Source: Flavonifractor plautii ATCC 29863 (GTDB lineage Bacteria > Bacillota > Clostridia > Oscillospirales > Oscillospiraceae). Taken from it: DNA of 64,000 nt. Below the pieces are notes generated by a model. The model saw only the letters and a list, made by a program, of their open reading frames with translations, had not been told where the DNA came from and made no database searches. The stretch lies in assembly GCF_000239295.1 (NCBI RefSeq), contig NZ_JH417807.1, positions 1-64,000 of the forward strand, in the 5' to 3' direction. Below are positions 36,883 to 54,829 of the stretch, piece after piece. A program made the translations under genes and the position numbers. How positions within the stretch are numbered: the first letter of the stretch is position 1; each line of letters opens with the position of its first letter.

Positions 36883-36929
36883 ACTGGCATTTCCTCCTTG
36901 ATTTCATGTTGGGTCGGAAAGTCCGGGCA

Positions 36930-37058
36930 TTACGCCCGGACCGATCTGGCCCTTCTGCTCCGCTTCAGCCGGCGCAGAAGAATGGCGGCCGCCGTCAGGG
37001 GCAGGGTCACGCCAACGATGGTGAGCACAGTCTTTCTCGTTACATGGAACTTCTTCAT
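36930..37058 (-). CDS. Small single-pass membrane protein, 42 aa
   Basis: An ATG with GGAGGTTG 7 nt upstream opens a 42-codon frame: basic start (MKKFHVTRKT), hydrophobic helix (VLTIVGVTLPLTAAAILL) and strongly basic end (RRLKRSRRARSVRA). It lies between the prepilin peptidase gene (6 nt away) and cpaB, so it is probably part of the Tad operon. No family is known to me. Likely an accessory membrane peptide; easily lost in annotation. Confidence 0.65.
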   Translation of the reverse strand: MKKFHVTRKTVLTIVGVTLPLTAAAILLRRLKRSRRARSVRA

Positions 37059-37063
37059 AGCAG

Positions 37064-37483: not shown

Positions 37484-37489
37484 CGGGCA

Positions 37490-37753: not shown

Positions 37754-37805
37754 AGAGAGTTCCTCCTCAAAATTTTAGATTGTTGATTGTTGTGTGGTCA
37801 GTGGG

Positions 37806-38201: not shown

Positions 38202-38256
38202 GGTGTGTTCCTCCTTTTTATGAATATAAAAAATAAGTGGCTTTTCCGCTCTTGGG

Positions 38257-38808: not shown

Positions 38809-38831
38809 GGCGGCATATCTCCTTTCTGCGG

Positions 38832-39563: not shown

Positions 39564-39573
39564 CTTGCCTCCT

Positions 39574-39993
39574 TTACGGCAGGCGCCATTTGCCCGCTGG
39601 GGGGATCGTCAGCGGGCTGATGCCCAGCTCATTGAGCAGGCAGCAAAGCTCCACCGAAAGCTCCCGCAGTTCCTCCGTTGAGGGGACGATGATGAGCGCT
39701 CCATCCGCGGCCAGAACCGCGACTTCTTCTCCCACGGGGATAGATGCCTCGGATAACAGTGCGGCGGGCAGATTGAGTTCCATACCGCTGCTGGTGTATC
39801 CGGTACACTCAGCGTCGTCACAGGTTCTGGTCACCAGGAGGCTGTTTGCGTCACAGTCGCAGATGTACTGGTTCGCTGGGGTGGTGATGGGAACTTCTTC
39901 CCCCGGCTCATAGCCCATTCCGCGCATGAAAAATGCAGGCAGGGTCAGAGACCCGTCTACACCGACCCGAACCGTTGTATGGATCTTACTCAT
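39574..39993 (-). CDS. AbrB/MazE-like domain protein
   Basis: A 139-residue protein with two swapped-hairpin AbrB-like units (TTVRVGVDGSLTLPAFFMRG and SGMELNLPAALLSEASIPVG). ATG at 39993 has GGAGG 9 nt upstream. Its start lies 8 nt inside the end of the related 180-residue gene, so the pair is coupled. Probably DNA-binding transition-state-type regulators; no toxin partner is adjacent. No cargo tail. Confidence 0.72.
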   Translation of the reverse strand: MSKIHTTVRVGVDGSLTLPAFFMRGMGYEPGEEVPITTPANQYICDCDANSLLVTRTCDDAECTGYTSSGMELNLPAALLSEASIPVGEEVAVLAADGALIIVPSTEELRELSVELCCLLNELGISPLTIPPAGKWRLP

Positions 39994-40528
39994 CGCCGTG
40001 TTCCTCCTGCCCATTGCATGCGGTGCGTTCTCCGTAGATGAGATTCCCCACCATCAGCTGTTCCTCCAGCTCGCCCAGGCAGATTCCGGCTTCACCCAGC
40101 ATCTCCAGCAGGTAGGGAGGCACATCCCGCAGGTCATGGTCATATCCGGCCTCGGCAATGGTGACGGTCTTTTCTTCGTCATCCACATAGACACAGAGCT
40201 TGGCCCCGGCAGGGATGCCGGCTTCTTCCCGCAGGTAGTCTGGCAGTTCCAGCATACCGTCCTCCAGATCATCGAATGGGCAGCCATCCTCGCAGTCATC
40301 ACAGGTGCCACAGACTCTGGCCAGATGGACGGTGAGCTCCGTGGCCAGCCGGTGCAGGGCATCCATCGCCTGGATCAGTTCCATGGTGGTCATTTGCTTT
40401 TTCAGAACGACCACCGCGCTGTCCAGCGTGTGGATCTCGACCTTTTCTCCGCCCTCAAAGCCACTGATCTTGAACGTTCCGCCGGGAATCAAAAGAGTAC
40501 CATTGTTTATCTGTTTGTTGAATTTCAT
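39986..40528 (-). CDS. AbrB-like protein with Cys cluster
   Basis: A 180-residue protein with an AbrB-like N-terminal hairpin (NGTLLIPGGTFKISGFEGGE) and a second at ~90-125 (DGMLELPDYLREEAGIPAGA). Between them is CGTCDDCEDGC, a probable metal-binding cluster. Paired with the next AbrB-like gene by an 8-nt overlap. Likely a regulator; the ligand is unknown. Confidence 0.72.
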   Translation of the reverse strand: MKFNKQINNGTLLIPGGTFKISGFEGGEKVEIHTLDSAVVVLKKQMTTMELIQAMDALHRLATELTVHLARVCGTCDDCEDGCPFDDLEDGMLELPDYLREEAGIPAGAKLCVYVDDEEKTVTIAEAGYDHDLRDVPPYLLEMLGEAGICLGELEEQLMVGNLIYGERTACNGQEEHGDE

Positions 40529-40541
40529 CTTCTTCTCCTTA

Positions 40542-40982
40542 TTACATTGAAATTGTAGAACGGGCTGGATTGGATGCTCCCGGCCATTCCTGTCCTTGTT
40601 GGGCAGCCAGCCCGTCCCGGAAGGCTGTCAGATCTTCTCCTGTCGGCGTATAGCGCCTTGCTTCAAGGGCGGCCATCAGCGCATAGGTCTGGCCAACCTC
40701 GGACAGCAGTGCCCGAAGATCGTCCGCAACCATATCCGTCCCCATCCGGCGGAGCTGCGCGGTAAAGGTGATTCGGTAATGCGGCTGGCCGGGGATGCTG
40801 TCGATCCGCATATCCATTCCCAAGTTGGAATCGTGTTGCGGGCGGATATAGACCTGACCCACTACGCTGGGGCAGACCTGAAGGCGGCCCTGACTCATTT
40901 CCTCAATCAGCTGAGCCGCCTGCTGGAGCTTTTCCAGTTCAGAGAGCTGTTCATCCAATTGCCTCACCCCCGTTCCAGTCAA
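40542..40982 (-). CDS. Hypothetical ICE cargo protein, up to 146 aa
   Basis: A soluble protein with a coiled N-terminus (LDEQLSELEKLQQAAQLIEE) and a beta-rich middle (YRITFTAQLRRMGTDMV). The start is uncertain: the long frame begins at a TTG inside the methylase gene (32-nt overlap), with in-frame GTG and TTG alternatives a few codons in. No family recognised. It ends ARSTISM, an exact match to the shared tail. Confidence 0.65.
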   Translation of the reverse strand: MTGTGVRQLDEQLSELEKLQQAAQLIEEMSQGRLQVCPSVVGQVYIRPQHDSNLGMDMRIDSIPGQPHYRITFTAQLRRMGTDMVADDLRALLSEVGQTYALMAALEARRYTPTGEDLTAFRDGLAAQQGQEWPGASNPARSTISM

Positions 40983-41787
40983 ACAGCGTCATTTGAGAGG
41001 GAACCGCCCGGCTCCGCTCCCGCAGGTCATAGTTGGCGATAAGCAGTTCCGGGAACTGAGCCCCATTGTCGTACCTCTGCTTGATGTTGTTGATACGGGT
41101 GGTTTCCATGAGGTAGATGCCTGGCCTGTCGTACAGCCCGCGGACAAAGGCGTCGTCGTTGTAGGAGAGCAGGAATTTGCCCTCGATCCGCATCAGGGCG
41201 TCCCGCAGGCGGATGTGGTCGGCTTCGGTGAAACCGTCTTCACCAATGTTCTGGTAATACCCCTCGGTGGCATGGTAGGGCGGGTCGAGATAGAAAAAGC
41301 TCACTGGCCGGTCATATTGACGGAGCAGTTTTTCAAAGTCCTTGTTCTCAATAACCACCTTGGCAAGCCTCCGGTGGGCCTGCTCAATGAGCGGAAAGTT
41401 GCTCCGCATATCGTGGGGCTGGCTGCCAAAACTGGTCAGCCCGGAGGCGTAGCTGTAGCGGATGAGCTGATAGAACCATGCCGCCCGTTGGACATCGCTG
41501 GCGGGGCTGTCCCGCGCCAAGGCGGAGCGGATGCGGTCAAAGTCCTCCCGTGCGTTGAGTACATACCGCAGAGCCTCCATCAGCTCCTCCGGTTTGTCCC
41601 GCACACAGCGGTACAGGTTGACCAACAGGCCGTTGAAGTCATTGTAGACCTCAAAGTCGTTGCCGGGAGGCTTGTGGAACAGTACCCAGCCCCCGCCGCC
41701 GAACACCTCAATGTACCGCTCATAGTAGAGGGGGAACAGCCGGACGATCAACTCCCGCAGGGCCTTCTTGCCTCCAATCCAGGACAT
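40951..41787 (-). CDS. DNA adenine methyltransferase (Dam/D12 class)
   Basis: A 278-residue N6-adenine methylase. The AdoMet motif is YIEVFGGGGWVLF (~25-37) and the catalytic motif DPPY (~175-178, in FYLDPPYHATEG). The N-terminal WIGGKK is family-typical. With no restriction enzyme nearby it is probably an orphan methylase that protects or marks the element, as for the C5 enzyme at 21-23 kb. It overlaps the following cargo gene and starts 8 nt after the small HTH gene. Confidence 0.92.
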   Translation of the reverse strand: MSWIGGKKALRELIVRLFPLYYERYIEVFGGGGWVLFHKPPGNDFEVYNDFNGLLVNLYRCVRDKPEELMEALRYVLNAREDFDRIRSALARDSPASDVQRAAWFYQLIRYSYASGLTSFGSQPHDMRSNFPLIEQAHRRLAKVVIENKDFEKLLRQYDRPVSFFYLDPPYHATEGYYQNIGEDGFTEADHIRLRDALMRIEGKFLLSYNDDAFVRGLYDRPGIYLMETTRINNIKQRYDNGAQFPELLIANYDLRERSRAVPSQMTLFDWNGGEAIG

Positions 41788-41795
41788 GAAACTGT

Positions 41796-42128
41796 TCAGG
41801 GCGTATCACCCCCATCCAGCGGCAGGCGGGTCTGTGCGGTATCCTCTCGCTCCAGAGTCCGATCCAGTCCCCGGATGGCGGCCGCGATTCCGCTGATCCG
41901 CCTGGTCAGATGGGCGATGGTGGCCCGCACCTCCTGGTCCGTGGCGGCATAGAAGTATCCACTCCCGTTGCTGGCGATGGGGACGCCATCCCGCCGCAGG
42001 GCATTGACCATGTGTCGAACCTGAATCCCTTTGATGCCGAAGGTCAGTTCCAACTCCCGGCTGGTGGCGGCGTTGAGAGCTCCCATGTGGTACTGCTCCA
42101 GATATTCCGCCAGCCGTTCTTTCTCCAT
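41796..42128 (-). CDS. Winged-helix DNA-binding protein
   Basis: A 110-residue protein. The segment TSRELELTFGIKGIQVRHMV (~22-41) followed by LRRDGVPIASNGSGYFYA is a winged-helix fold, as in phage and ICE replication or regulator proteins. A coiled C-terminal tail follows. ATG with GGAGG upstream. A very strong terminator-like hairpin ends 40 nt before the start. Confidence 0.75.
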   Translation of the reverse strand: MEKERLAEYLEQYHMGALNAATSRELELTFGIKGIQVRHMVNALRRDGVPIASNGSGYFYAATDQEVRATIAHLTRRISGIAAAIRGLDRTLEREDTAQTRLPLDGGDTP

Positions 42129-42168
42129 GAATGCCTCCTTTCCGGGCCTGTTTTCCGAAAAAGGGCAT

Positions 42169-42210
42169 AAAAAAGAAGGGGCCGTTTTCCCCTTTCGGAA
42201 AACGGCCCCT
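42169..42210 (-). terminator. Strong terminator before the winged-helix/methylase genes
   Basis: A perfect 14-bp stem (42177-42190 with 42197-42210) and 6-nt loop is followed on the minus strand by TTCTTTTTTA. It separates the ArdA-like group from the winged-helix gene; only 40 nt lie between it and the next start codon. Confidence 0.85.
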
Positions 42211-42303
42211 GTGTCATATTCTATATCCTGTTTTTACTTCATCGAATCACCCCCAGCTCCCGCAGCGGACAGATGCGGTTTTTGTGACTTGGCAATAGAT
42301 CGG

Positions 42304-43341
42304 CTATATTGACAGAGCGGGACTGTGGTGCTCAGGCTGGCTATACTCATACCGGCGCTCTCCACCGTTCCAGGCTACATAGCCGTGGTCGGTGGTCGAG
42401 AGGCCATATTGACCCATATTGGCCTCTGCGTAGGCAGCCCCGTCAAAGGCGTCTGTTATCAGTCTGCTGGGCGGGATCACGCCGTTTTGGACCGCAAGTT
42501 CCCGCCCGTATGCGGCCAAGTCCATGCCGCGGGGGAAGAACTCATAGTGCTGGAGATTCTGGGCGAGATCCAGAGCCAAATCCAGCCGGTGGCAGTCCTC
42601 CAGCTCCAGCACCGCCTGCCATTTGTCCAACCAGTGGGGTGCCCCCTGACCCTGTTCCGCCCAAACATAACCGAAGTCAATGGCATGGCGAACCAGTTCG
42701 CTGGCTGAGTCGTACTGGTCGAGAATACCCGTCAGCTGGGGCAGGCAGCAGTCCACCTCCAGTGCGATGCACTCGCTGAGGCTCTCTGCCTGTAGCGAGT
42801 CCAGCCCCAGCAGGAGTTCGTCCGGATGGTTTGAGTCGATATACTCGCCGGAATCCGGGAAGCCAACCCAAATCCCCTCCATATTGCTCCGGCTGGCCAG
42901 TTTAACTCGTATGGCATAGTCACCGGCGACCGGCTGGAGGGTGGGATCTTCCTCTACGAAGGGATCTGCCAGTTTGATGTTCCGCACATAGTGACCGTTA
43001 CAAAAGGCTCCATTCTGCGACTGGTGGTAGGCGGCCCCCAAATGCTCCGCATTCAGGAATGGACGGGCGGCATCCGAGGAACACTCTATGCTCTCCATGA
43101 CAAATTTTCCAAGCGCGGCCTCGTCTCCCGCGCCATAGAAGAGGTCGTAACAGTCCAGTTGGGACGCAATCCGCATCACATGGCCGATCTCTTGGGGCTT
43201 CTCCAACTCCATCGCCCCTTGGAACAGGATCTTTTCTTTCTCTGTCATATTGGAAAAGCGCCGCTCCAGCCAGTCATGCTCCGATTTTGTAACATAGAAG
43301 CCGTCCAGCTTGTCAAAGAGGGCGGCGTTTTGATCTGACAT
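42304..43341 (-). CDS. ArdA-like antirestriction-type protein
   Basis: A 345-residue acidic soluble protein. The N-terminal part (MTEKEKILFQGAMELEKPQE then LDCYDLFYGAGDEAALGKF) and a C-terminal repeat (LDLAQNLQHYEFFPRGMDLAAYGRE, seen here in two pieces) follow the ArdA pattern of acidic, DNA-mimic antirestriction proteins, apparently duplicated. No catalytic motif. It starts 3 nt downstream of the next ArdA-like gene's stop region. It ends HHSPALSI, a weak version of the shared tail. Confidence 0.7.
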   Translation of the reverse strand: MSDQNAALFDKLDGFYVTKSEHDWLERRFSNMTEKEKILFQGAMELEKPQEIGHVMRIASQLDCYDLFYGAGDEAALGKFVMESIECSSDAARPFLNAEHLGAAYHQSQNGAFCNGHYVRNIKLADPFVEEDPTLQPVAGDYAIRVKLASRSNMEGIWVGFPDSGEYIDSNHPDELLLGLDSLQAESLSECIALEVDCCLPQLTGILDQYDSASELVRHAIDFGYVWAEQGQGAPHWLDKWQAVLELEDCHRLDLALDLAQNLQHYEFFPRGMDLAAYGRELAVQNGVIPPSRLITDAFDGAAYAEANMGQYGLSTTDHGYVAWNGGERRYEYSQPEHHSPALSI

Positions 43342-43344
43342 CGC

Positions 43345-44592
43345 TCACATCATCTCCAGTCCTTGTCCTATTTCCTGTTCCGGCTGAAATACCGGGAGAG
43401 GCTGGCCGTCCTTTCTGCGGATCAGACCATACTCTGTGATAACCCCCAGCCGGTCATCCAGCATCTTCTGGCCGATCTGGGCCGCCTGCGGGGTCTGGAA
43501 CAGCTCCTCTGGTAAAGCAGAATACTTCTCACGGAACATCATCTCCGCATAGCCCCAGGCCTGCGCTACCTCGGGACGGAGTTCGTACTGGTCAATCTCG
43601 CCCATCAACCGTGTGGCGTCCTGCAGACTGGGGTGGTCAACCACGGATAAAAGCGCCTTATACTTGACCATATCCGATTCGGGCCACTCCCGTTCTATTT
43701 GAGCCAACCGCTTGGCAAATTCGTCGGCCTGTTCAATGCCATCCTCATCGTCGATAGCGTTGTTGATAGCATCCCGCAGGAAGGGGATCAGGCAATCCAC
43801 ACAGCGGAATGCACATTCATCCACTGAGGCGGCATCTACTTTTTCCACCGCTCTCCATATACCGGCATCCGCTGCGGGAAGATTCAGCACTGCGGTTTTG
43901 TCGTTATCATAGCTTGGGTCATTGAAAAATCCCTTACGCACCTCCAGCACCACCGGAGCATCGGAGCGATGGAAGCAAGCCGTTTCATTGGACTGGCACA
44001 CATAGATGTCCTTGATTTCTCCACCCAGTTCCGCATAGCCGAAGTCGGTGAACACGCCGCCATGATCCTCCTGATGCTGTTCTCCCAGCAGTTCCAGCAG
44101 TCTTTCCCGAAAGCCGCTGCCCTCCTCTGTGGTGTCAAGCAGAGCCATAGCCTCATTTGAGAGCATTTCATTTGCGTATAAAAACGCCCCCAGTTCTTCA
44201 TGATTGGAAACTCGGGGCGCAAAACAGCAGATATCGGTATTGTAGGTCAGGTTAATCAATTGGTTCAGCGGAATGGGAGCGACGCGGTGATTCTGCTTGA
44301 TTTTCAAAAGAGCATCCATCCCTTTTTTCTGCTCCTCTGTCAGTGAGGCCAATCGCTGGGCAAACAGGTTTAGGTCGTATAGATTAGCATTCCACCCAAT
44401 CATGGCATGCGTGAGGCCATTGTAATGGATGCAGGTTAGCTCATTTTTGCAGAAGCTACCGTCTTTGATTCTCGCCTTTTGGAGTGCGTCGCTGAACTCC
44501 GCAAAGGATGCTGGCATTTTCATTACCGTGGCCGTCTCATAAGATTTAGGTCCACTGTTGCTGATCTCCACCTCGAAAATTGTCTTATCCAA
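43345..44592 (-). CDS. ArdA-like antirestriction-type protein
   Basis: A 415-residue acidic soluble protein. Residues ~65-150 (NLYDLNLFAQRLASLTEEQ, LNQLINLTYNTDICCFAPRV, SNHEELGAFL) follow the ArdA core closely, and GVFTDFGYAEL matches its end. A second related unit occupies the C-terminal half (DKYKALLS-type helices, then QYELRPEVAQAWGYAEMMF). Likely blocks type I restriction in a recipient. It ends GQGLEMM. Confidence 0.75.
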   Translation of the reverse strand: MDKTIFEVEISNSGPKSYETATVMKMPASFAEFSDALQKARIKDGSFCKNELTCIHYNGLTHAMIGWNANLYDLNLFAQRLASLTEEQKKGMDALLKIKQNHRVAPIPLNQLINLTYNTDICCFAPRVSNHEELGAFLYANEMLSNEAMALLDTTEEGSGFRERLLELLGEQHQEDHGGVFTDFGYAELGGEIKDIYVCQSNETACFHRSDAPVVLEVRKGFFNDPSYDNDKTAVLNLPAADAGIWRAVEKVDAASVDECAFRCVDCLIPFLRDAINNAIDDEDGIEQADEFAKRLAQIEREWPESDMVKYKALLSVVDHPSLQDATRLMGEIDQYELRPEVAQAWGYAEMMFREKYSALPEELFQTPQAAQIGQKMLDDRLGVITEYGLIRRKDGQPLPVFQPEQEIGQGLEMM

Positions 44593-44899
44593 GAGTAATC
44601 CCTCCCTGTGTAGACTCTTGCTCAGGAGCCTCGGGCGGTTCCATGTCTGAGTGAACTTCGTTCACGGTTTCCAATATGGATTCCAAGTCTCTTTTCCGAG
44701 AAATATTCGCAAAATCCACGGAGCGGCAGTATACTTCGCCATCCTTTCCCACAGAGCACTGTGTCTGCTCTTTGCCTCGCATCTTTTTCGATTTCACTGC
44801 CAGGCATCCGTCATCGGCAATTCGTGAGGAGAAGCCCTTTTCCTTTAACCGCTCCGACAATACCGAAAAAAACTGCCGCGTTCTCCCATCAAGATCCAT
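44585..44899 (-). CDS. Small ICE protein, 104 aa
   Basis: A basic N-terminal soluble protein (RTRQFFSVLSERLKEKGFSS). Its opening resembles the first ~60 residues of the 219-residue gene at 51.5-52.1 kb (a helix followed by a beta strand and a second strand after a Gly turn). It overlaps the next ArdA-like gene by 8 nt. Function unknown. The end TQGGITLG is close to the shared tail. Confidence 0.62.
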   Translation of the reverse strand: MDLDGRTRQFFSVLSERLKEKGFSSRIADDGCLAVKSKKMRGKEQTQCSVGKDGEVYCRSVDFANISRKRDLESILETVNEVHSDMEPPEAPEQESTQGGITLG

Positions 44900-44914
44900 T
44901 TTATACGCCTCTTT

Positions 44915-45913
44915 CTATAAACTCATTCCCTGCATCTCAATATCTTCTGCAGGAGCGGAAGGGGCCTCATAGAGTGTGCTTCGGCCATAAGCGATGCGGA
45001 TGATATCCTCTGCGGAGTAGTCGGAGCCAGCGCCAAAAAGATGCCTGAACTGCAGGCGGTCTGACGGAGCAATGTACCATGTGGAATACTGAGACTTCAG
45101 CCCTTTCAGGGATTCAGCCGATGTTTTGAAGGTCAGTTCCACTCCGTCCTTCTGTACCGTGACATTGACCGCCTTTGCGCCACTTTTTTGGAGGGCATCT
45201 GTAATCGCCCGCATCCGATAGACCGGTGCATCGCTGTCCTGGCTGAGCATCTGATACTCTGCCAGCAACGCATCCTTCTTTAGAAACTGCGCCAGAAATT
45301 CCTCCTGGTTGTCCCGCATATACTGTTCCGCAGTTGTTTTTATATAATCCTCCGGGGATTTGAGGTAGGAGAGCAGGGTGTCTTCTGTCAAGGATGTATA
45401 ATACTCACTGTGAAACTGTACATCGGGTTTCTCCCCAGAAAAAACGAGGGAAGCTGCCTCCCGCCCTGCCTCGGTTCCCTTGTAATACCGGTATGAATTG
45501 ATGTTCCTCTCACTGGTGAGTTCCCTGACAGAGAGGCGACTTCGGTCATTGGAAATGGCCGCCTCAACATAGCGGTCGACCTCCTGAGCGATGCGCTTCC
45601 CAAACGCCGTAGAATCCTGGCATTCTTCTTCCGTCAGTCCGGAGACAAAGTTGGGAAGGGGGTCATCCAGAAGATGGAGCGCCTGGTGTTGCCGGTCGTA
45701 CAGGCCGCAGAACTCCAAACGGTCGCTCCAGCTGATCCTCTCTCCATAAAATGTTTCGCATCCAAAGAGGTAATCAATCTCTGGCGTTGCGGGAACTTTC
45801 ACTACTGAGCCCAAATGCTTGCCCTTTTGCAGAACTAAAACTGGCACAGCGGCATTTTCCAGCCACTCTTGAAACTCCTGCCGGGGAAGTGGGGCCTGCT
45901 TTTGCTGCGACAT
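44915..45913 (-). CDS. Hypothetical ICE cargo protein, 332 aa
   Basis: A soluble, mostly helical protein with no recognised family. Notable segments: FGCETFYGERISWSDRLEFC (~50-69) and LKSQYSTWYIAPSDRLQFRH near the C-terminus, two similar SDRLxF stretches that may be a repeat. It ends IEMQGMSL, an exact shared tail. Confidence 0.68.
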   Translation of the reverse strand: MSQQKQAPLPRQEFQEWLENAAVPVLVLQKGKHLGSVVKVPATPEIDYLFGCETFYGERISWSDRLEFCGLYDRQHQALHLLDDPLPNFVSGLTEEECQDSTAFGKRIAQEVDRYVEAAISNDRSRLSVRELTSERNINSYRYYKGTEAGREAASLVFSGEKPDVQFHSEYYTSLTEDTLLSYLKSPEDYIKTTAEQYMRDNQEEFLAQFLKKDALLAEYQMLSQDSDAPVYRMRAITDALQKSGAKAVNVTVQKDGVELTFKTSAESLKGLKSQYSTWYIAPSDRLQFRHLFGAGSDYSAEDIIRIAYGRSTLYEAPSAPAEDIEMQGMSL

Positions 45914-45930
45914 TACAAAATCCTCCCATT

Positions 45931-46926
45931 TTACTGTTTCTGCTCAAAGTTTGCACAACTTGTCTGTCCCGAGTATGACTCTTCATAGTGTTTGGGGTCA
46001 GCACCAGGCACATCCCACCCAGCCATGCTTCCTATCTCCATAGCTTGCCGCTGGATGGGGGTGACGCCCAGGTCTTCGTTCAACTCATCCGCCAGTTCCA
46101 CATTCCCTTCCTTGTCGCCGGTATCCCAGTCGGAGGGGTAGTAGCCAGTTTCACCCCGTTTGATGCAGATAAGCTGTCCGGTGGTCCGCAGGGTGGAGAA
46201 GCACAGTTCCGGCAACCCCTCGGCCACCTTGGGGGCAAACCGTTCCTGTTCGGTTTGGATGCTCCAATCATCAGGCTGCCACAGATGGACATACAGCTCG
46301 CCGCCGTCCACCTCGATGGGGCGCTGCTCGAAGCCTTCGCCCCATCCGTCAGAGGCTTGTCCACCCAGGTACTCTTTTAAGATGGTAAGCTCTTCCGGAG
46401 TCAGCTCTCCGGCCACCCGGCACTCCGCTACACCCCAGAGCTGGCGATTCCTGACCTCAACAGTAAACACCGCCGAGCGGACCTTGTGATCTACACTGTC
46501 GTCCTCACCGTACCAGTGCATGAGGCCGCTCTCGTTTTCCTCTGGTACCCGGTTTTTTACCAGAGCGGACAGAATTTGTCCCTCATAATCCATGAGGGTG
46601 CGGCCATCCCACTCCTCACCGTCCTCTGACATATCCCCCCACTCGTCCCGTCCATAGAAGTCCGCTGTGAGCGGCATATACAATTTGAATGTCTGAGGCT
46701 CTGGCAGATAGACCGAGAATCGGTCTTCTCCCAGCACCAGAGCCAAGGTACATCCATTGTCCCACTTTACATGGAATTGCCCGGCATCGTCGATATAATC
46801 CAGTTTCCCGGTACTGCCGGGGGAAATGGGCCGGGGATTACCGCCTATCTCTGTGAGTTGGATGCGGGAATCCTTGGGGAACTGCTGCCGCAAGAAGTCC
46901 AGCCACTCTCTCGGTACGCTTTGCAT
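45931..46926 (-). CDS. DUF4314-domain multidomain ICE protein
   Basis: A 331-residue soluble protein. Residues 1-75 (PREWLDFLRQQFPKDSRIQL then GKLDYIDDAGQFHVKWDNGC) are a DUF4314 domain, SH3-like. The middle (RVAGELTPEELTILKEYLGG then QASDGWGEGFEQRPIEV) and the end (DELNEDLGVTPIQRQAMEIG) are segments I recall from other Clostridia ICE proteins. It ends CANFEQKQ, so it lacks the shared tail although its neighbours have it. Confidence 0.78.
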   Translation of the reverse strand: MQSVPREWLDFLRQQFPKDSRIQLTEIGGNPRPISPGSTGKLDYIDDAGQFHVKWDNGCTLALVLGEDRFSVYLPEPQTFKLYMPLTADFYGRDEWGDMSEDGEEWDGRTLMDYEGQILSALVKNRVPEENESGLMHWYGEDDSVDHKVRSAVFTVEVRNRQLWGVAECRVAGELTPEELTILKEYLGGQASDGWGEGFEQRPIEVDGGELYVHLWQPDDWSIQTEQERFAPKVAEGLPELCFSTLRTTGQLICIKRGETGYYPSDWDTGDKEGNVELADELNEDLGVTPIQRQAMEIGSMAGWDVPGADPKHYEESYSGQTSCANFEQKQ

Positions 46927-48264
46927 TTACATCTCTCCCATTCTAATCCCAATATCCGGCTGATTTAATTGTTGATAGAGCCGTTCCATCGCCTCCGCCA
47001 CCACGAGGTCCGACCGGAAGCTTTCCAGTTTTTCGTGATCCGTAAAGAATTGCTGTTCACCGCTCTGGAAATGAACAAAGTCCACTGTGGCGATACCGTC
47101 CTTAATAACGCCCAGCCGTTTCTCACTGGTATTGCTGTCCTGGTAGATTTGGATTGCTTCCTCCAGAGTCAGATCTTGCCTGATTATCTCCTGCGGGGTA
47201 TTGGTGTCCGCCATGACAAACCAGGCATAGGTGTGGGGAATGCTGGGATCTGCGGCTTTCCTAAGAGCCTGCTTCCCAGTTTCAGTCAGTCCATAGTTGC
47301 AGGTACGGCGTGAATTGTCCTCACCGGCAAAATCCAACAGGATATCGTCTACCGCTTTTTTGACCTCCGGATCGTCTGTCAGCGTTTCAAAGCGGAAGCC
47401 GGTTGTGCTGCGGAAGGGCAGTTCCTCCCGGATGGCCTGGAGCAACGCCTTGGAATCCGTGAACTCCTGCTGTTCGCCGCTGGCGAAGGTTACCCGACCT
47501 ACCACAGGGTGTTCCTGTCGGTACATCTCCTGCTGGCAAAGATCATAGCAATAGAGGTACCCCTGATACTCGCCGGGAAAGGGAGTACAGCGTAGACAGA
47601 AACGGTAATTTTCTGTTTCCGCAATATAGCCATAACTCCTGCGGTCCTCTGTGATGGAGCCGCCATGCTGCCAGCAGTAGGCGTCCATGGCCCCCAGATT
47701 CTTCAGGAGTCCAGTCTGACGCAGGTCGTCCACAAATCGCTGCAGCACCTCTTTGAACTCCGGGGTGTTGAACCTATCCTCGTTATGGGGCCACCAGGTG
47801 TGCCAGAACTCCTTCTCACCATGGCCGAAATCCATGCGGAGGTGGCCTACAGTACCCAGTGCCTCGTCCAGCTTTTCTTCGGAATAGAACAGCCCCGCCT
47901 CATCCAGGGAGGCGGGGCGCAGTACAAACTCACGATTATCCTGGGGGTAGGCCAGATCATGCTCCTCGCAAAACTGCTCCAGCGTCATTTCTTCTCCCAG
48001 CAGATAAAATGTGCCGTTGACCCGGCGCGAAGCAGTACCTTCATGCTTTAAAGGGATTGGAGAAAGTACGGTTCCTGCATGATAGTCAGCGGCATGATCC
48101 ACCAGAGTGGTTCGGGTGCTGGGAGATTTATGTGTCCCCCGCAGGTCATAGCAGTACCACCCATCAGGAATGATATCCCGCTGAATCAGCCAGTTGGTGA
48201 ACAGCACAGGTTTTCCAAGCAACGCTGCGTGTTGCATGGAGTCTGTCCAGATGTTAATGCTCAT
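46927..48264 (-). CDS. Multidomain ICE cargo protein (LPD-type N-terminus)
   Basis: A 445-residue soluble protein. The N-terminal ~110 residues (WYCYDLRGTHKSPSTRTTLV, YHAGTVLSPIPLK, FYLLGEEMTLEQFCEEHDL) match a domain found in large mobile-element polypeptides of gut Firmicutes. A second half has two copies of a SGEQQ-F-FTD-x-L motif (near 265 and 405). Function unknown. It ends IGIRMGEM. Stop and next start are adjacent. Confidence 0.7.
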   Translation of the reverse strand: MSINIWTDSMQHAALLGKPVLFTNWLIQRDIIPDGWYCYDLRGTHKSPSTRTTLVDHAADYHAGTVLSPIPLKHEGTASRRVNGTFYLLGEEMTLEQFCEEHDLAYPQDNREFVLRPASLDEAGLFYSEEKLDEALGTVGHLRMDFGHGEKEFWHTWWPHNEDRFNTPEFKEVLQRFVDDLRQTGLLKNLGAMDAYCWQHGGSITEDRRSYGYIAETENYRFCLRCTPFPGEYQGYLYCYDLCQQEMYRQEHPVVGRVTFASGEQQEFTDSKALLQAIREELPFRSTTGFRFETLTDDPEVKKAVDDILLDFAGEDNSRRTCNYGLTETGKQALRKAADPSIPHTYAWFVMADTNTPQEIIRQDLTLEEAIQIYQDSNTSEKRLGVIKDGIATVDFVHFQSGEQQFFTDHEKLESFRSDLVVAEAMERLYQQLNQPDIGIRMGEM

Positions 48265-48339
48265 TTAATCCCTCCCATATTCACAGTGTTTTCCCACTCG
48301 TGCTGGTTCCACAGCGTATCTTGTATCTGCGTACAGGGA

Positions 48340-49470
48340 TTAATGCATCTGCAACCCATCTTGTACTTCAGGGAACGGATCACTGAGCTTTCGGAGCAGG
48401 CCAAATTCGGTCCTTCTCACACCATCCTCCCGCATATAAAAGTTGCCCATTGCTTCGAAATCCGTAAAGCCATCGAGGGTAGAGATCAGCTCCTCGTCCG
48501 CCCCGATCCGCTCCAACACCTGCTTGCCATATTCCTCCGGATCGTCCGGTACACGCTCGTAGTCATCCAGTTCGATGGAAAACCTCAAAGCCTCCTGGAG
48601 CGTTGCCGGCTGTTCCACCTCAAGGACAGAGAGGTATTTCAGCAATGCGCCATCCTCCTGATCCATTATCCGGATATTTTCCGCCAACTCGTCCAATTGC
48701 TCCAGTCTCAGATCCATCCCCTGGAGAGGAAGATATTCCCCCAGATAAGGCCGCAGGGCCTCCACCCGAGTGAGTTTCGCCATATTGAGGCTGTCCACTC
48801 CCAGAAGTTGTCTGGCGCTCTCCAATTGCTCAAAGGTCGCAGGCAGAGTGATCTGCGCTGTTTCGCTCTGTACACGAACAGGGCAGGGGTTTTCCATCCA
48901 TATCCGGAAAACGCCGTCCAATCTCTCGTTCTCCAAAAGTTCAGGTGTCTTTTTCTGCACATAATTGCCGCTGGAATATTCTCCTCCATGCTTTTCCCGA
49001 TATTCAGCCCCCACACGGGCATAATTGATATAGGGCTTGAAGCGATCCGGAAATGGTGTGATCCCTTTGTTCACAAGGTAGATGCCCAATTCTGAATCAG
49101 ACGACACATTGTTGACGAGCATATACTCATCCAGCCTGTCCGCCACAGTAAGGGCCCCCTCCAAGTTCCAGACACACTCCGCATCCAATGCCCCGGAAAA
49201 GATGGCGGCTTTCGCCGGAGAAAGTGCCTCTGTGCGTTCCGCCAGTTTTTGTAGTTTTTGAAACTGCTCCGAATCTTCTACATCCACATCGTACAGGCAT
49301 CGGTAAAGGACCGGTACATTGCTGCTCACATCCAGGATGGCGGTGGCTGTGGTATCGAGGCTGATTCTGTCCAGGAAGGCAAATGCCTCCCCAATCTCAG
49401 CGGGACTGGCGGGCAGTTGCAGACGGACAGTTTCTTCTCCTTTTCCCCGGCTCAGAGTCAACAGAATCAT
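48340..49470 (-). CDS. ArdA-like antirestriction-type protein
   Basis: A 376-residue acidic soluble protein. The N-terminal half (SPAEIGEAFAFLDRISLDTT, QKLAERTEALSPAKAAIFSG, SDSELGIYLVNKG) and a second, degenerate copy in the C-terminal half (LDELAENIRIMDQEDGALLK) follow the ArdA pattern. It ends VQDGLQMH. Paralogous in layout to the genes at 42.3, 43.3 and 49.5 kb. Confidence 0.72.
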   Translation of the reverse strand: MILLTLSRGKGEETVRLQLPASPAEIGEAFAFLDRISLDTTATAILDVSSNVPVLYRCLYDVDVEDSEQFQKLQKLAERTEALSPAKAAIFSGALDAECVWNLEGALTVADRLDEYMLVNNVSSDSELGIYLVNKGITPFPDRFKPYINYARVGAEYREKHGGEYSSGNYVQKKTPELLENERLDGVFRIWMENPCPVRVQSETAQITLPATFEQLESARQLLGVDSLNMAKLTRVEALRPYLGEYLPLQGMDLRLEQLDELAENIRIMDQEDGALLKYLSVLEVEQPATLQEALRFSIELDDYERVPDDPEEYGKQVLERIGADEELISTLDGFTDFEAMGNFYMREDGVRRTEFGLLRKLSDPFPEVQDGLQMH

Positions 49471-49472
49471 CG

Positions 49473-50678
49473 TTACATTCCTCCCATCTGAAATTCCTGT
49501 TCCCGCTGGTGCTGCTCTGCCGGACCGCCGGCCATCAGCTCCCCCAATGTCAATGTGCCACAGTAGGCCACATATCCTTTCTCCGTGAAGGCTCCTGTTT
49601 CCTTCTCCATACGGAGTTTGCCGTAACGCTCATAATCATAGAACTCCTCCAGATTGGGGTCATATTCATAATGGCCGGAGTCCTGGATCATGTATCTGCC
49701 ATATTCGGCGGGAGTGCGGACTTTGGGTGCAAACTCAAACAGCTCCAGATTTTTGGCCAGTTCGCGTATCTCGCTGGCACACTCCGGCTTGGCCATCTCC
49801 ATGACCGCCGTCAACTTTTTCTGTTCCAAATCAGACAGTGCAGCGATGGCCGTCGCCATATCATTCAGCGCGAATAGATCCTCCCGTTGTCCCTCCAGGA
49901 CCTCCTCCACCTCGGATGGAAGCAGACTGTCCTCATACCAGATGCGGGCATCGTGGATGTTAACGCCTGAGCGTGCAATTCCACGCTGGAGCTGTTGCTC
50001 GGAGCAGGGCAGGAGCAGCCAAGTGATTTGATCTGTATTTTCCGGCTCTTGCCGGGAGGAAAGCCCTACCGCCAGCAGATTCGGCTGGTAGTGGTAACAG
50101 GGGAAGTGGCGGCCGTCATAGAGCTGCTCCAGTTTCATCCCGTTATCATAGACCACGCCATAAGGGGTAATCCTTCCCTCAAGATGATTGAGGATCAGGT
50201 CCAGAGCGAACTTGCGGCCATCCAGCCGCTCGAGCTCCTCGATTCTGCAGCCCCCACCCTGCATCGTCATGTAGTGCTGCCGCCCAATGGCGTCCAGGTC
50301 GGAGAAGTCTGTGATGACCGTGGCCTGCTGGCAGCAAAAGGTCAGATTGATGAAATCCTTTATATTTGAGACGCCCAATTTGCAGGCCATTCCCTGGAAC
50401 TGGGCAGCCTCACCGTCATCAAAACTGTCCAGCCGTTTGGCCAGATAGTCCAGCTCATCAAAATTGACCAATGAGCCAACCAGCCTGTTCAGTACGGTAT
50501 AGAAGCTGTCCAGTTCATCCACCCGGCAATCCTGCCGGAGCGCGTCACCGATTTCCAATGGCTCCAGCAGTTCGATCATGCGGTCATATTTCTCATCGGG
50601 GATAGGGAATGGAACCGTAATCTGCCCATATTCCGGGTGCTGAGCGCTGCTCAGTACCGCTTTCAGCACATAGCCCAT
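49473..50678 (-). CDS. ArdA-like antirestriction-type protein (duplicated domain)
   Basis: A 401-residue acidic soluble protein with two ArdA-like halves. The first has LVNFDELDYLAKRLDSFDDG and SNIKDFINLTFCCQQATVIT. The second has LNDMATAIAALSDLEQKKLT, AKNLELFEFAPKVRTPAEYG and FYDYERYGKLRMEKETGAFT, which closely follows the ArdA ending. It would mimic DNA and titrate type I restriction complexes. It overlaps the upstream Cys-cluster gene by 16 nt. It ends EFQMGGM. Confidence 0.78.
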   Translation of the reverse strand: MGYVLKAVLSSAQHPEYGQITVPFPIPDEKYDRMIELLEPLEIGDALRQDCRVDELDSFYTVLNRLVGSLVNFDELDYLAKRLDSFDDGEAAQFQGMACKLGVSNIKDFINLTFCCQQATVITDFSDLDAIGRQHYMTMQGGGCRIEELERLDGRKFALDLILNHLEGRITPYGVVYDNGMKLEQLYDGRHFPCYHYQPNLLAVGLSSRQEPENTDQITWLLLPCSEQQLQRGIARSGVNIHDARIWYEDSLLPSEVEEVLEGQREDLFALNDMATAIAALSDLEQKKLTAVMEMAKPECASEIRELAKNLELFEFAPKVRTPAEYGRYMIQDSGHYEYDPNLEEFYDYERYGKLRMEKETGAFTEKGYVAYCGTLTLGELMAGGPAEQHQREQEFQMGGM

Positions 50679-51376
50679 TCTGGTGCCTCCTTACTCGCAT
50701 CCATGACCGCCTTTCCATATCTGGCAATCATGGTTGCGTAAATAATATTGTGGAAGTCCAGATCACTCACCAGTTTTGGGTGTGCCAAATCTTCTGCCTC
50801 CATGGGTGACTTCAGGTCATACAGCCGTCTGGCGGAATAAAAGATGGGGTAATCCTGTATCGCAAATCCATGGGGTTTGGATACGATGCGGCTGAAATCA
50901 ATGGAATCGTGTGAAAGAGCGGGGAGCGCCGGTTGCCAGAGTCGCTCCTTTGAGGCGAGAAGATAGAGCGCCGCCAGATAGCCAGGAGGCGCATCATCCC
51001 ATACCCTGTCCGCAAAGCGGCTTCTGAGGTGGACGGACACTGTGTGCAGGACTGCCTGATCCGGCCCGCTCCAGTGTTCCACAGCCTGAATCCTCTTGTG
51101 CAGGCCGGCATGAGGGATGTGTCCGAAATATTCCAGAATCAAATCCAGGTACTCAATCGCGCCGGACTTCAACCGCTCCGCGATATACGGACAGGTGCGG
51201 ACTTGACAGGATCGGCGGCGGTAATGCAGGCAGTACCGGCAATCCACATCCTCCGGCTTGTAGCAGAAGCGGCTGAGGATCATCATCCCGCCGCCGCGCT
51301 TCTGGAAGCCAGGGACGCTCATCATCATATGCTCCAGACCAGCTCGAGGGGTATTCTGAGCGAAATATCTTGTCAT
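50663..51376 (-). CDS. Conserved ICE protein with Cys cluster
   Basis: A 237-residue soluble protein. CRYCLHYRRRSCQVRTCPYI (~46-65) is a compact four-Cys cluster, probably metal-binding. Similar proteins with this cluster are common in Firmicutes ICEs near ArdA genes, function unknown to me. A 16-bp terminator-like stem ends 22 nt before the ATG. It ends PEWAMC, a variant of the shared tail. Confidence 0.72.
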   Translation of the reverse strand: MTRYFAQNTPRAGLEHMMMSVPGFQKRGGGMMILSRFCYKPEDVDCRYCLHYRRRSCQVRTCPYIAERLKSGAIEYLDLILEYFGHIPHAGLHKRIQAVEHWSGPDQAVLHTVSVHLRSRFADRVWDDAPPGYLAALYLLASKERLWQPALPALSHDSIDFSRIVSKPHGFAIQDYPIFYSARRLYDLKSPMEAEDLAHPKLVSDLDFHNIIYATMIARYGKAVMDASKEAPEWAMC

Positions 51377-51398
51377 GGCACACTCCTTCTTTCAAAGC

Positions 51399-51455
51399 AA
51401 AAAAGCGGGAGCCGCTTATGCTGCACAGTGTGTGCAGATGCGGCTCCCGCTTTTT
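51399..51455. terminator. Very strong bidirectional terminator
   Basis: A perfect 16-bp stem (51400-51415 with 51440-51455, AAAAAGCGGGAGCCGC) with an internal CTGCACA/TGTGCAG hairpin in its loop. T-runs on both strands. It stands between the first and second genes of the minus-strand cluster, 22 nt before the second start codon. Confidence 0.85.
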
Positions 51456-51461
51456 CTGATG

Positions 51462-52121
51462 TCACATATCAATTTGTGGCTCCTGTGCTTGTCCCTGCTC
51501 CAGTCTGTCCGCCAGATCTGGGACAGTGTATTCGATCTTTGTCCTTGCGGTCTGCATGGCTTTGAGGTGTCCATCTTCCAGCTCTGGGCCTTCATCCAGC
51601 AGGTAGTCTGTGGCCCGGTAGAGTTCAGTTAGCTCCTCCGGTGAGAAAAGCTGGGTCTTGGAGATCAGCCCAGAGCGGACGGCAAAATCCTGCTTGGCCC
51701 CGCAAAAATCTTCATCATAATAATGTCCGTAGCTCACGCCGGTTCTGTTATAGTCCCAGATCCAAGTGACAAACTGATAGCCCCTGCCATTTTCCAACTC
51801 CCGGCCAGCCAGCACTGCGCCGCCAAAATCCGCCAGCAGATGGAATTTTTCGCTCAGACCGCTGATATGAAGGGTGGGCGCAGTTTGAACCGCCTCAACA
51901 TAAGTGTACACTTCATCTGCGGTCTGTGCGACTCTGTGGTACAATTCACTGGCCTCCGGATTATTGCTTCCGGCAGGAAAAAGGAACACATCGTTTCCTG
52001 GAGAAACAAAGAGGACAGGCTGACCATGGAGGAAAATCTCCAGCCGCCTATCCTCTACATTGGATGATTCAACTCCGCCTTCTCTCAGGCGCCGGGAAAG
52101 TTCTTCAAAAAATTTTTTCAA
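51462..52121 (-). CDS. First gene of the ICE cluster, DUF5688-like
   Basis: A 219-residue soluble protein. TTG start with GAGGTT upstream. A helix-strand N-terminus (FFEELSRRLREGGVESSNVE) is followed by YRLLADFGG-type and LFVSPGND-type segments; FAVRSGLISKTQLFSPEELT near residue 155 is a conserved-looking motif in ICE proteins I recall as DUF5688-like. It is the promoter-proximal gene. It ends EPQIDM, an exact shared tail; 85 nt with a hairpin separate it from the next start. Confidence 0.68.
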   Translation of the reverse strand: MKKFFEELSRRLREGGVESSNVEDRRLEIFLHGQPVLFVSPGNDVFLFPAGSNNPEASELYHRVAQTADEVYTYVEAVQTAPTLHISGLSEKFHLLADFGGAVLAGRELENGRGYQFVTWIWDYNRTGVSYGHYYDEDFCGAKQDFAVRSGLISKTQLFSPEELTELYRATDYLLDEGPELEDGHLKAMQTARTKIEYTVPDLADRLEQGQAQEPQIDM

Positions 52122-52162
52122 TGGTTAAACCTCATTTCTTTTTTATCTGTTGGGACGACAAC

Positions 52163-52197
52163 AAAAAAGCGGAGATTCTATCATCGAATCTCCGCTT
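52163..52197 (-). terminator. Leader hairpin of the ICE cluster
   Basis: A perfect 12-bp stem AAGCGGAGATTC (52167-52178) with 52186-52197 and a 7-nt loop, followed on the minus strand by TTTTTTG. It lies 41 nt before the first gene of the cluster, as an attenuator would. A weak TATAGT -10-like box is just upstream (about 52203-52208). Confidence 0.75.
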
Positions 52198-52270
52198 CAA
52201 TAACTATATTGGTTTTTCTCCGGGGGAAGGGAATCAGGTGTCCGTCCTCTTTGTGTTTTCGTATGGATAG

Positions 52271-52311
52271 AACAATGACTCACACATTTGGTCTGTGTGA
52301 GTCATTGTTTT

Positions 52312-52313
<2 letters not shown>
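52271..52313. terminator. Terminator 3' of minus-strand tRNA-Ala
   Basis: A perfect 16-bp stem (52271-52286 with 52294-52309) and 7-nt loop. It lies immediately beyond the 3' end of the minus-strand tRNA-Ala and probably ends its transcript. T-run on the plus strand. Confidence 0.8.
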
Positions 52314-52387
<74 letters not shown>

Positions 52388-52457
52388 ATGTTGCCAGAAA
52401 CCCTTGATTTTGCTGGATTTCTGAGCTATTCAATTTTTTGACTTTACTCTCCGTTGC

Positions 52458-52504
52458 GGGGGAGCATACCCGGTTGCTTGCGCTCCCAGCTGAGCTATAC
52501 CCCC
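52458..52504 (-). pseudogene. tRNA-Ala-like 5' half closed by a novel 3' segment
   Basis: Directly after the promoter, the first 23-25 nt of tRNA-Ala (GGGGGTATAGCTCAGCTGG...) are followed not by an anticodon arm but by ~20 unrelated nt. They end in CCCCC, which can pair with the 5' GGGGG. No T-arm and no CCA. Either a decayed tRNA or a tRNA-like RNA. Confidence 0.55.
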
Positions 52505-52543
52505 ATGTTCAATTTTTGCTGTTTTGCTGACCGAACGAATTGT

Positions 52544-52572
52544 ATTTTAGCAGAGTATTACCCATTTGTCAA
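52544..52572 (-). promoter_or_regulatory. Promoter of minus-strand tRNA unit
   Basis: TTGACA (52567-52572) and TAAAAT (52544-52549) with 17-nt spacing on the minus strand, a near-consensus sigma-A promoter reading into the tRNA-like segment and tRNA-Ala. Confidence 0.85.
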
Positions 52573-52578
52573 CTACTT

Positions 52579-52913
52579 TTTTCGCTTTTTTACAAATTCA
52601 TTTAGGTAAGCTGTGTGGACGGCGTATAAAAGTGAGAGCATCACGCAAATTGAATACTTCGTACTATGTTTGCAATTAATAATAGCATCTATCTTTTTGA
52701 CGCACGCAACCTGAACCGCCCCCCTCTTTTGAACAAGTCTAAAATATGTGCCCTGCATCTCCCAAGGGCTAAAAATTGGAACGGCACTCTTAGAGACTCC
52801 AGCAAAACGATATTTATTTTTGATTATGCCTGCTTATAATAGTCCACTATAGCGCTCAACTCCCAAATTACAAAGAACTCTCGCTCTTCTCGCTCTATTG
52901 GCAAAAAAACAAA
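52579..52913. other. AT-rich spacer between divergent tRNA promoters
   Basis: No supported gene. Several short frames lack ribosome sites. AT content is markedly higher than in neighbouring genes. Confidence 0.5.
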
Positions 52914-52920
52914 AAAGTAG

Positions 52921-52949
52921 TTGACAAATGGGTAATACTCTGCTAAAAT
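52921..52949 (+). promoter_or_regulatory. Promoter of plus-strand tRNA unit
   Basis: TTGACA (52921-52926) and TAAAAT (52944-52949), 17-nt spacing, identical to the divergent minus-strand copy. Confidence 0.85.
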
Positions 52950-52988
52950 ACAATTCGTTCGGTCAGCAAAACAGCAAAAATTGAACAT

Positions 52989-53043
52989 AGGGGTATAGCT
53001 CAGCTGGGAGCCTGGTACAAGCGTGTACTAGCACCCCTCACCA
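52989..53043 (+). pseudogene. tRNA-Ala-like mini-RNA ending in CCA
   Basis: The 5' portion AGGGGTATAGCTCAGCTGG is tRNA-Ala-like. It is followed by a 7-bp hairpin (CTGGTAC/GTACTAG, 6-nt loop), then ACCCCT, which pairs with the 5' AGGGGT, and CACCA. Acceptor and D-arm are present, the T-arm is missing. Decayed tRNA or T-armless tRNA-like RNA. Confidence 0.5.
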
Positions 53044-53060: not shown

Positions 53061-53169
<109 letters not shown>

Positions 53170-53205: not shown

Positions 53206-54829
53206 TTATGCAGCAAAGGTCACTATGTCCAGGCCGCCGTTGAACTGCTCAAAGTCAATATTAAAGTCGATGTGCAGCTTATAGTCCCGGCAAACCTCCA
53301 CCCGCTTGATTAGGCATTTGACGATCATTTTCTTTGCCTCCAGGCTGGCGCTGTCATACATATCCGCCCAAGAAATGATGTCGTCATATTGAGCCTCCAG
53401 AGAGCTCAGGACAGTTTGCCCTTCCTCATAGGCGGCCTGGGCCGCTTCAAACTGCTTTTGGAGCTCGGTGCACTTGGCCTCGGCTTCGGACACCATAGAG
53501 CCCAGCAGGTCTTTGGAAAAGGCGCTTTCCCCGCGCAGGGCCTTGATGACCTCTGCTTTCAGCATATCTAATTCAACGGCAGCTTTGACGTGCTCCGCCC
53601 GGACACTTTGAAGCAACCGTTTCCGCTCCTCCATTTTTTCACGGTAACGAGTGTTGACAATCTCGCTTTTAGGGATTGCTTTCATGCGCTCAAAAATCTG
53701 ACGTACCATCTTATCAATGATCCCATCCAGAATATGGGCCGTGTAGCCCGTCTGCCCGTCACAGTCTGTCTGTTTGCGGGTTTTACCATAGCAGATATAC
53801 CGCACCCGCTTGATCACCCGGCGGGGATCGTCTTTACAAGGGTATGCCTTCCCGCTGGTGGTGAGAGTGAGCCTTGCTCCACAATGGCCGCAAAAGACAT
53901 TTCCAGACAAGAGGGACTGCCCGCCAATGTTGCGGGGAACAGTGCGTTCCTTTTCGGCAGCGTTGGCCCGGTTTGTGCGGATGCGCTGAGCGGCCTCAAA
54001 TAACTCCGGTTCAATAATCTGTAAATGCGGGAGCACCTTGGAACGGCTCTCACCGCTGCGGAGTACGTCTGTATAGGTCAGGTTACAGATGATACCCCGG
54101 ATGGTGGCGTGATGCCACATCTTGCCGCTGCGGGCCCGGTAGCCCTGGTTATTTAATGTAGGTGGCGATCCGCTGGGCTCCGTAGCCCTCGTGTACATAC
54201 TTATCAAAGACAATGCGGACGACAGCGGCCTCGGTTTCGCTGAGGGCCAGCTCGTAAACCTCGTGCTTGCGCTTGTTCACCCGCCCGCTTTTCAAAAGGT
54301 CATAGCCATAGGGGGCGACGCCACCCTTGAAGCCTCCATCCTCCACAAGCTACCCCAGAGCGGTTTTGGTACGGATGGAGGTTTTTTCGCTTTCGCCGTC
54401 CGCCTGCCAGAAGCGGATGTAGTTGGTGAGCTTGTCGGTGTGATTGTCAAACCGCTGCTCACCCTCCTGGGTACTCCAAACCCGGACGCCGTTCTTGACG
54501 AACCATTCCACCACAAAGGGCGTTTCGTCTGCGATCCGCCCGATGCGGTCAAACATGAACACCAGCAGAATATCAAACTTGCCCTGCCGGGCCCGTTCCT
54601 TGATGATTTGTAGCTTGTCCCGGTTTTCCGCCCGTACCTTATGGCCGGAAACGCCATCCTCCTGTTCCTCGTGAACAATCGTCCAGCCCATTTTCTCGCA
54701 AAAGGCGTGGCAGGCTTTCCACTGCATGGGAATGTCGGCCTGGTTTTTATCGTTGTGATCCACCTGCTTATCGGTAGACACCCGGTATAAACAGTCAACG
54801 CGAGTGCCAGTTATCATTTGATTTTCCAT
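53206..54829 (-). pseudogene. Large serine recombinase, inactivated
   Basis: Three consecutive pieces make one ~540-codon recombinase. The N-terminal catalytic part (54829-54350) has RVSTDKQ with the nucleophile Ser. It ends at an in-frame TAG (54350-54352) after TKTALG, where relatives have Gln. The middle piece (54349-54149) carries GGVAPYGYDLLKSGR. A single extra A near 54150 (ATTAAATAACC) then shifts the frame into the C-terminal zinc-ribbon and coiled-coil part (CGHCGARLTL ... ending DIVTFAA). If the sequence is right, the enzyme is dead; two small errors would explain it too. Tail next to tRNA-Ala. Confidence 0.88.

Follow-up and report, generated by a model that had tools for sequence, protein, structure and literature searches.

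A divergent pair of truncated tRNA-Ala genes, each followed by a complete copy

The window analysed here is a 64,000-nucleotide stretch of Flavonifractor plautii ATCC 29863 (contig NZ_JH417807.1, positions 1 to 64,000; genome G000 in what follows). It contains two divergent units, each consisting of a promoter-like sequence (TTGACA-17-TAAAAT), nucleotides 1–22 of tRNA-Ala(GGC) joined to other DNA, and a complete tRNA-Ala(GGC). A preliminary description had listed the truncated genes, hereafter called stubs, as two T-armless tRNA-like segments, and both were found as it stated, in divergent orientation and with a full tRNA-Ala behind each. In the plus stub, positions 52989-53010 correspond to tRNA-Ala nucleotides 1–22 with G1 changed to A, followed by an arm with a hairpin and ACCCCTCACCA. 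In the minus stub, positions 52504-52483 match nucleotides 1–22 exactly and the arm beyond ends in CCCCC. Both promoter-like sequences fall within a 114-nt inverted repeat (95%). The features are given below under the names used in the interpretation developed in the following sections.

1..52482, minus strand: putative minus element (compared stretch 45377-52508, remaining extent predicted), with MobL relaxase, coupling protein and secretion ATPase; attR and an intact recombinase on G000:C11
52312..52387, minus strand: complete tRNA-Ala(GGC), read as the replacement gene of the minus element; within the stretch common to G000 and G362
52454..52504, minus strand: predicted attL of the minus element, host tRNA-Ala nucleotides 1–22 (52504-52483) plus attP arm; the arm mirrors the orphan arm on G000:C11
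52505..52988, no strand: host chromosome between the two elements, presumably the former middle of a divergent tRNA-Ala pair (intact divergent pairs in four genomes of another genus; 114-nt inverted repeat)
52544..52572, minus strand: promoter-like TTGACA-17-TAAAAT of the host tRNA gene, consensus match only
52921..52949, plus strand: promoter-like TTGACA-17-TAAAAT of the host tRNA gene, consensus match only
52989..53040, plus strand: predicted attL of the plus element, host tRNA-Ala nucleotides 1–22 (52989-53010) plus attP arm; the arm mirrors the orphan arm on G000:C121
53011..64000, plus strand: left part of the putative plus element (predicted extent); attR on G000:C121
53061..53169, plus strand: 12-bp clasp around the plus replacement tRNA, CTTGTGCCTCTC (53061-53072) and GAGAGGCACAAG (53158-53169)
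53081..53156, plus strand: complete tRNA-Ala(GGC), read as the replacement gene of the plus element; on the element side of attL
53206..54829, minus strand: gene for the large serine recombinase of the plus element, broken up by in-frame stops as assembled; its Resolvase, Recombinase and zinc-ribbon domains are encoded in different frames

Among the other tRNA loci fetched from G000 (L186-L211), no comparable 5'-half stub was seen, one tRNA-Pro pair excepted. In this pair (L191:460-742, G000:C173), a tRNA-Pro(TGG) copy that diverges near its 3' end precedes, by 183 nt, an intact tRNA-Pro(TGG) whose 5' half is the same; this may be a further case of the 'broken then whole' arrangement, with the gene broken at a different point. 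At many loci, and in the window at about 53043-53054, the DNA between stub and tRNA contains a motif of the type AAAATTGAATA or AACTTAATAA, which is reminiscent of rRNA spacers.

Distribution and regular spacing of the stubs

The stubs were searched for as a tRNA-Ala 5' half followed by C, the intact gene having A at that position. This pattern is present in 63 of 400 genomes of the family, and at least 119 stub stretches were obtained from GTDB contigs, most of which belong, by title, to Oscillospiraceae or other Clostridia, among them Faecalibacterium, Agathobaculum and Lacrimispora. Tandem arrays contain as many as four stubs. We kept 155 distinct stubs (including L126, a full variant tRNA, and the doubtful L063), of which 132 were long enough for the position of the closing CCCC to be scored. 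The CCCC started at one of two adjacent offsets in 99 of these, compared with a shuffled expectation of about 0.7–0.8 per offset. Given the number of genomes that carry the pattern and an offset count far above that from shuffling, the stubs are not a product of chance. The closing CCCC was absent from 24 of the 132 stubs, which kept the 5' half required by the search pattern.

Orphan 3' halves and mirrored arms

An element that splits a tRNA gene is expected to have the 3' half of that gene at its far end. Such orphan 3' halves were searched for in 52 of the 63 stub genomes, and 23 were read in 17 of them; in the remaining 35 (draft assemblies, searched with an exact pattern) none was confirmed. 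Among the 27 rows of the orphan table, L076:2859, L123 and L143 are variant full tRNAs and L076:5697 falls outside the 52 genomes, and an orphan at a contig end of G005 was left out of the count. In a family-wide control, orphan-like sites were present in 17 of 63 stub genomes versus 19 of 337 others (p = 2.5e-6), some of the hits in these 36 genomes being likely variant full tRNAs.

The orphan halves begin after a shared GAG or GGAG, so that the core common to stub and orphan amounts to about 3–5 bp. Genome G000 contains two orphans for its two stubs (G000:C121, plus; G000:C11, minus), each preceded by the matching mirror-image arm. Three stubs and three orphans are found in G092, one orphan being inverted and about 0.98 Mb away, and stub and orphan share contig and strand in G362, G084, G212, G428, G294 and G023. 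The last of these is exceptional in that stub and orphan are 10.7 kb apart with no tRNA between them. At the attR of minus-type elements, ARAGORN calls a 79-nt tRNA-Ala made up of the attP arm and the tRNA 3' half (L354:11799-11877 and L256:1218-1296). A sequence of about 32 nt at G000:C121:3073-3104 is repeated at many contig ends of G000 and G014, which points to a repeat dispersed in these genomes or to an effect of the assembly.

As judged from 26 stubs and 23 orphans, 19 of the latter with a stub in the same genome, the 25-base stretch that precedes an orphan half mirrors the one that follows the tRNA part in a stub. Over all pairs the best register places the centre between A21 and G22 (11.6 of 25), registers one base off giving 8.7 and 9.4. 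The best same-genome partner of the 19 orphans reached a mean of 16.8 of 25 versus 11.4 for other-genome pairs, and the observed sum was reached in 0 of 5000 permutations; the same-genome stub was nevertheless the top partner for only 9 of the 19 orphans, one of them tied, and ranked 8th of 26 for the plus orphan of the window. With regard to the two stubs of the window, the plus arm agrees with the G000:C121 orphan arm at 15 of 25 positions and with the other orphan at 7, whereas the minus arm agrees with the G000:C11 orphan arm at 17 and with the other at 9.

In the orphans, the G-run lies farther from the centre in the attP arms than in the tRNA, with an optimum at 5–6 bp; this peak is broad (0.43-0.54 for shifts of 2 to 7), because the motif is a run of G. 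Serine integrases are known to use a zinc-ribbon motif that is shifted by 5 bp between attP and attB (PMC3783163). Since the offset of the attP G-run fits this shift, the 'acceptor stem' GGGG...CCCC of the stubs is best read as one attB zinc-ribbon motif facing one attP motif. The predicted attP sites have the build of those of large serine integrases, namely an imperfect inverted repeat around a short core, with the zinc-ribbon motif about 5 bp farther out than in attB.

Element boundaries and an empty site

The minus element is 99.7% identical over 7132 nt to DNA of G362, which belongs to another genus, and the match extends only 4 nt beyond the stub's first base. The attR end of the same element on G000:C11 is 97.7% identical over 1785 nt to the attR end in G362, and here the match stops where the 3' half of the tRNA ends. 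Both element ends are on one contig in G362, about 107 kb apart. Genes on the minus side of the window encode MobL, T4SS-DNA_transf and T2SSE domains, and an open recombinase gene adjoins attR on G000:C11. By gene content, the minus element thereby has the relaxase, coupling protein, type IV secretion ATPase and integrase of an integrative and conjugative element.

G084, which has a stub, a 6.35-kb insertion and an orphan 3' half, is collinear on both sides of the insertion with its congener G501, in which the tRNA is uninterrupted. The preliminary description had named an intact tRNA at an element-free site as an outcome that would refute it; this outcome is present in the sister case, but was not found for the sites of G000 itself. 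For the right flanks on G000:C11 and G000:C121, none of 20 genomes from the genus (G000 included) supplied an informative homologue. The G362 flank was matched in 16 of 16 genomes of its genus, in which we recognised no intact tRNA flanked in the same way, and the G092 flank gave a single weak match outside G092. Four genomes of another genus (G501, G513, G296 and G504) have a divergent pair of intact tRNA-Ala genes, a layout that can give rise to the doubly occupied locus of the window.

The genes of the G084 insertion (L343:4349-10284, G084:C13) include one for a transposase that has an rve core and one for a helicase, with no serine recombinase among the four genes scanned; the insertion is presumably a remnant or a passive element.

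Serine recombinases beside the junctions

From 119 loci we collected the neighbouring ORFs, 74 on the downstream and 108 on the upstream side. A zinc-ribbon domain was present in the nearest gene downstream at 22 of the 74 loci, a Recombinase domain at 19 and a Resolvase domain at 17, suggesting that the stubs mark the edge of mobile elements. No recombinase was present among the 25 commonest of 146 families in the 108 upstream neighbours. In total 51 matching recombinase ORFs (35 clusters at 97%) were placed: 40 are nearest to and converge on a full tRNA, 8 stand before attR on the same strand, and 3 are placed otherwise. Their distance to the element tRNA or attR is mostly 104-246 nt, with outliers at 728 and 1584 nt. 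In the plus element of the window the recombinase lies directly behind the replacement tRNA, unlike in the minus element, and both layouts recur elsewhere. One protein of each kind, tRNA-side and attR-side, was compared, and the two were 55% identical.

Large serine integrases were recognised as single proteins of about 450–600 aa that combine an N-terminal Resolvase domain with a Recombinase domain and a zinc ribbon, and this combination was found in L354 (556 aa), L256 (514 aa) and L039. Five proteins were scanned at full length, and for four of them NF047343 (SCCmec CcrB) was the best NCBIfam match (E 6.4e-25 to 2.6e-25 and similar). As the scores of 85-89 bits are far under the curated cut-off of 900, the recombinases are relatives of CcrB and not members of that family.

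From these results we consider it very likely that the stubs are the attL junctions of two elements that entered a divergent host pair of tRNA-Ala(GGC) genes, with a serine recombinase as integrase, the D-arm as target and a spare tRNA behind attL. Counting against this reading are the 35 stub genomes in which no orphan was confirmed, the low rank of some same-genome partners, the broad offset peak, the layout of G023, the distant inverted orphan of G092, the few stubs with neither a tRNA nor another stub behind them, the interrupted state of the plus recombinase gene in the window and the lack of one among the genes scanned in the G084 insertion.

A different enzyme, such as a tyrosine integrase, might instead have inserted the elements into tRNA-Ala, with the serine recombinase as cargo. 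tRNA genes are classical targets of tyrosine integrases (PMC4383910), some stubs have no adjoining serine recombinase, and the end-to-end reading covers only part of the elements. We regard this alternative as very unlikely, since a serine recombinase is repeatedly close to the element tRNA or attR, and since the short shared core, the symmetric attP arms and the attP/attB offset also speak against it.

A putative replacement tRNA behind most stubs

Of 120 stubs, 85 have a full tRNA within the next 257 nt and 26 have another stub there, 111 in all; the other 9 include one stub that is a tRNA in its own right and one whose sequence continues into masked bases. The start-to-start distance from stub to tRNA is about 76-236 nt, with a median of 97. 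The tRNA of the plus element in the window is enclosed by the 12-bp clasp listed above, and no clasp was seen around that of the minus element. Inverted-repeat clasps of at least 9 exact pairs surround 37 of 74 stub-borne tRNAs, compared with 1.9% when flanks were dealt randomly and with 5 of 28 tRNA-Ala copies that have no stub nearby. The clasp sequence varies between loci (L001-L185) while the pairing stays, and because the stems differ in this way a processing role in the RNA appears likely.

One orphan of G092 is followed by a stretch of 152 nt that shares 96% identity with the sequence behind a stub-borne tRNA elsewhere, and a recombinase also comes after this orphan, as expected if one element had entered the tRNA of another element.

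The stubs as possible RNAs

The first reading to be tried was that of a conserved RNA, drawn from the sequence classes and the constant length of the stubs, from their folding and from a possible pairing in the D-loop; it was given up as the main one when the recombinases and the orphan 3' halves turned up. It would make the stub a functional T-armless tRNA-mimic RNA, co-transcribed with tRNA-Ala and with its fold under selection. The constant spacing of the CCCC, the tRNA promoters upstream of the stubs and the acceptor, D-arm and hairpin in the fold of the plus stub (z -1.33) agree with this idea. The minus stub folds into a different layout (z -2.08), and the folding test does not discriminate, as a genuine tRNA scores only z -0.45. 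The closing CCCC of the acceptor-like stem is absent from the 24 stubs mentioned above, which weighs against a selected fold; the 5' side of this stem is set by the search pattern, so that the alignment of stubs carries no information on covariation. The exchange of A-T for G-C in the terminal pair had been taken as a small sign of covariation, a claim that was not borne out, because the changed base is in the host-derived half and those same 24 stubs have no CCCC to pair with. At a lax threshold, Rfam returned tRNA and weak microRNA matches for the stubs and nothing else. Attachment sites, on the other hand, account for every feature, including orphan halves, mirrored arms and the empty site. 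The suggestion of tRNA-mimic RNAs has thus gained no support, and we hold it to be very improbable; the stub DNA may still have a secondary role as RNA.

Tandem duplication of the tRNA gene followed by decay of the upstream copies, the recombinase being a passenger, would suit the tandem stubs and their 22-nt identity to tRNA, but it predicts neither mirrored arms nor an orphan 3' half on the opposite side of an insertion, is contradicted by the comparison of G084 with G501, and has in our judgement almost no chance of being correct. The stubs had also been described as possibly decayed tRNAs resulting from element insertion. That proposal comes close to the preferred reading, although the junctions look like products of precise recombination more than of decay.

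A model for integration

In the preferred reading, with the stubs as attL junctions of serine-integrase elements, a large serine recombinase would join attP to attB within the D-arm of the tRNA gene, the crossover most likely taking place at A21-G22, and excision is likewise presumed. The host promoter and tRNA nucleotides 1–22 would remain on one side as the stub (attL), and nucleotides 23–76 would be moved to the far end of the element (attR). Transcription of the complete tRNA-Ala(GGC), which the element bears shortly behind attL, presumably starts at the host promoter that has been captured and reads through the stub, and the cell would thereby keep its tRNA. The A1 change of the plus stub would then be located in a half that has been freed from working as tRNA. 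As the element-borne copy would constitute a fresh attB, open to further elements, the model would also explain the tandem stubs as the result of presumed successive insertions.

More generally, it seems probable that gut Clostridia contain a widespread clade of large serine integrases for which the D-arm of tRNA-Ala(GGC) is the target. Their elements, one of them an integrative and conjugative element of about 107 kb, would bring along a complete replacement tRNA that has an RNA-processing clasp of its own and is expressed from the host promoter they have captured. In this way an element would rebuild its own landing site, and a row of attL stubs would record successive insertions.

A family of serine integrases seems to integrate into a tRNA gene and to make up for this by bringing a whole copy of that gene. 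This would account for the recurrent tRNA-like stubs in genomes of Oscillospiraceae and their relatives, supply exact ends for many unmapped elements, yield candidate integrases with a conserved natural target, and give a readable log of successive insertions at one locus.

Comparison with known integrative systems

To our knowledge, serine integrases are not thought of as a class that targets tRNA genes; the host target of the A118 integrase is comK. Among the open-access papers listed by our searches we recognised no report of a serine integrase in a tRNA gene or of an arrangement such as the present one.

In the tRNA-gene islands catalogued by Islander, tyrosine integrases are at work and attP carries a gene fragment that regenerates the target (PMC4383910). 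The elements studied here are alike in that the tRNA gene is split, the displaced fragment lies at the other end and an intact copy is restored from the island. They are unlike in that no attP fragment completes the target; the shared core is about 3–5 bp, and a complete, separate tRNA stands behind attL instead.

The nearest serine-recombinase precedent that we found is provided by the Dehalococcoides ssrA islands (DsiB, PMC3146451). In the available part of that report, a serine recombinase of about 540 residues adjoins attL, the islands occur in tandem, and the target is within a gene for a tRNA-like RNA, namely the T-loop of tmRNA. They differ in that the target is tmRNA and that a 20-bp direct repeat of the 3' end of the gene is formed, and a whole replacement gene is not described in the same part.

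A118/LI and other large serine integrases share the Resolvase, Recombinase and zinc-ribbon domains and the motif shift of 5 bp between attB and attP (PMC3783163), the A118/LI integrase being a phage enzyme. SCCmec CcrB (NF047343), the best NCBIfam match yet far below its cut-off, denotes relatives only. Integrative elements in tRNA genes are known as such, and what would be new here is the combination of a serine integrase, a target in the D-arm and a complete spare tRNA.
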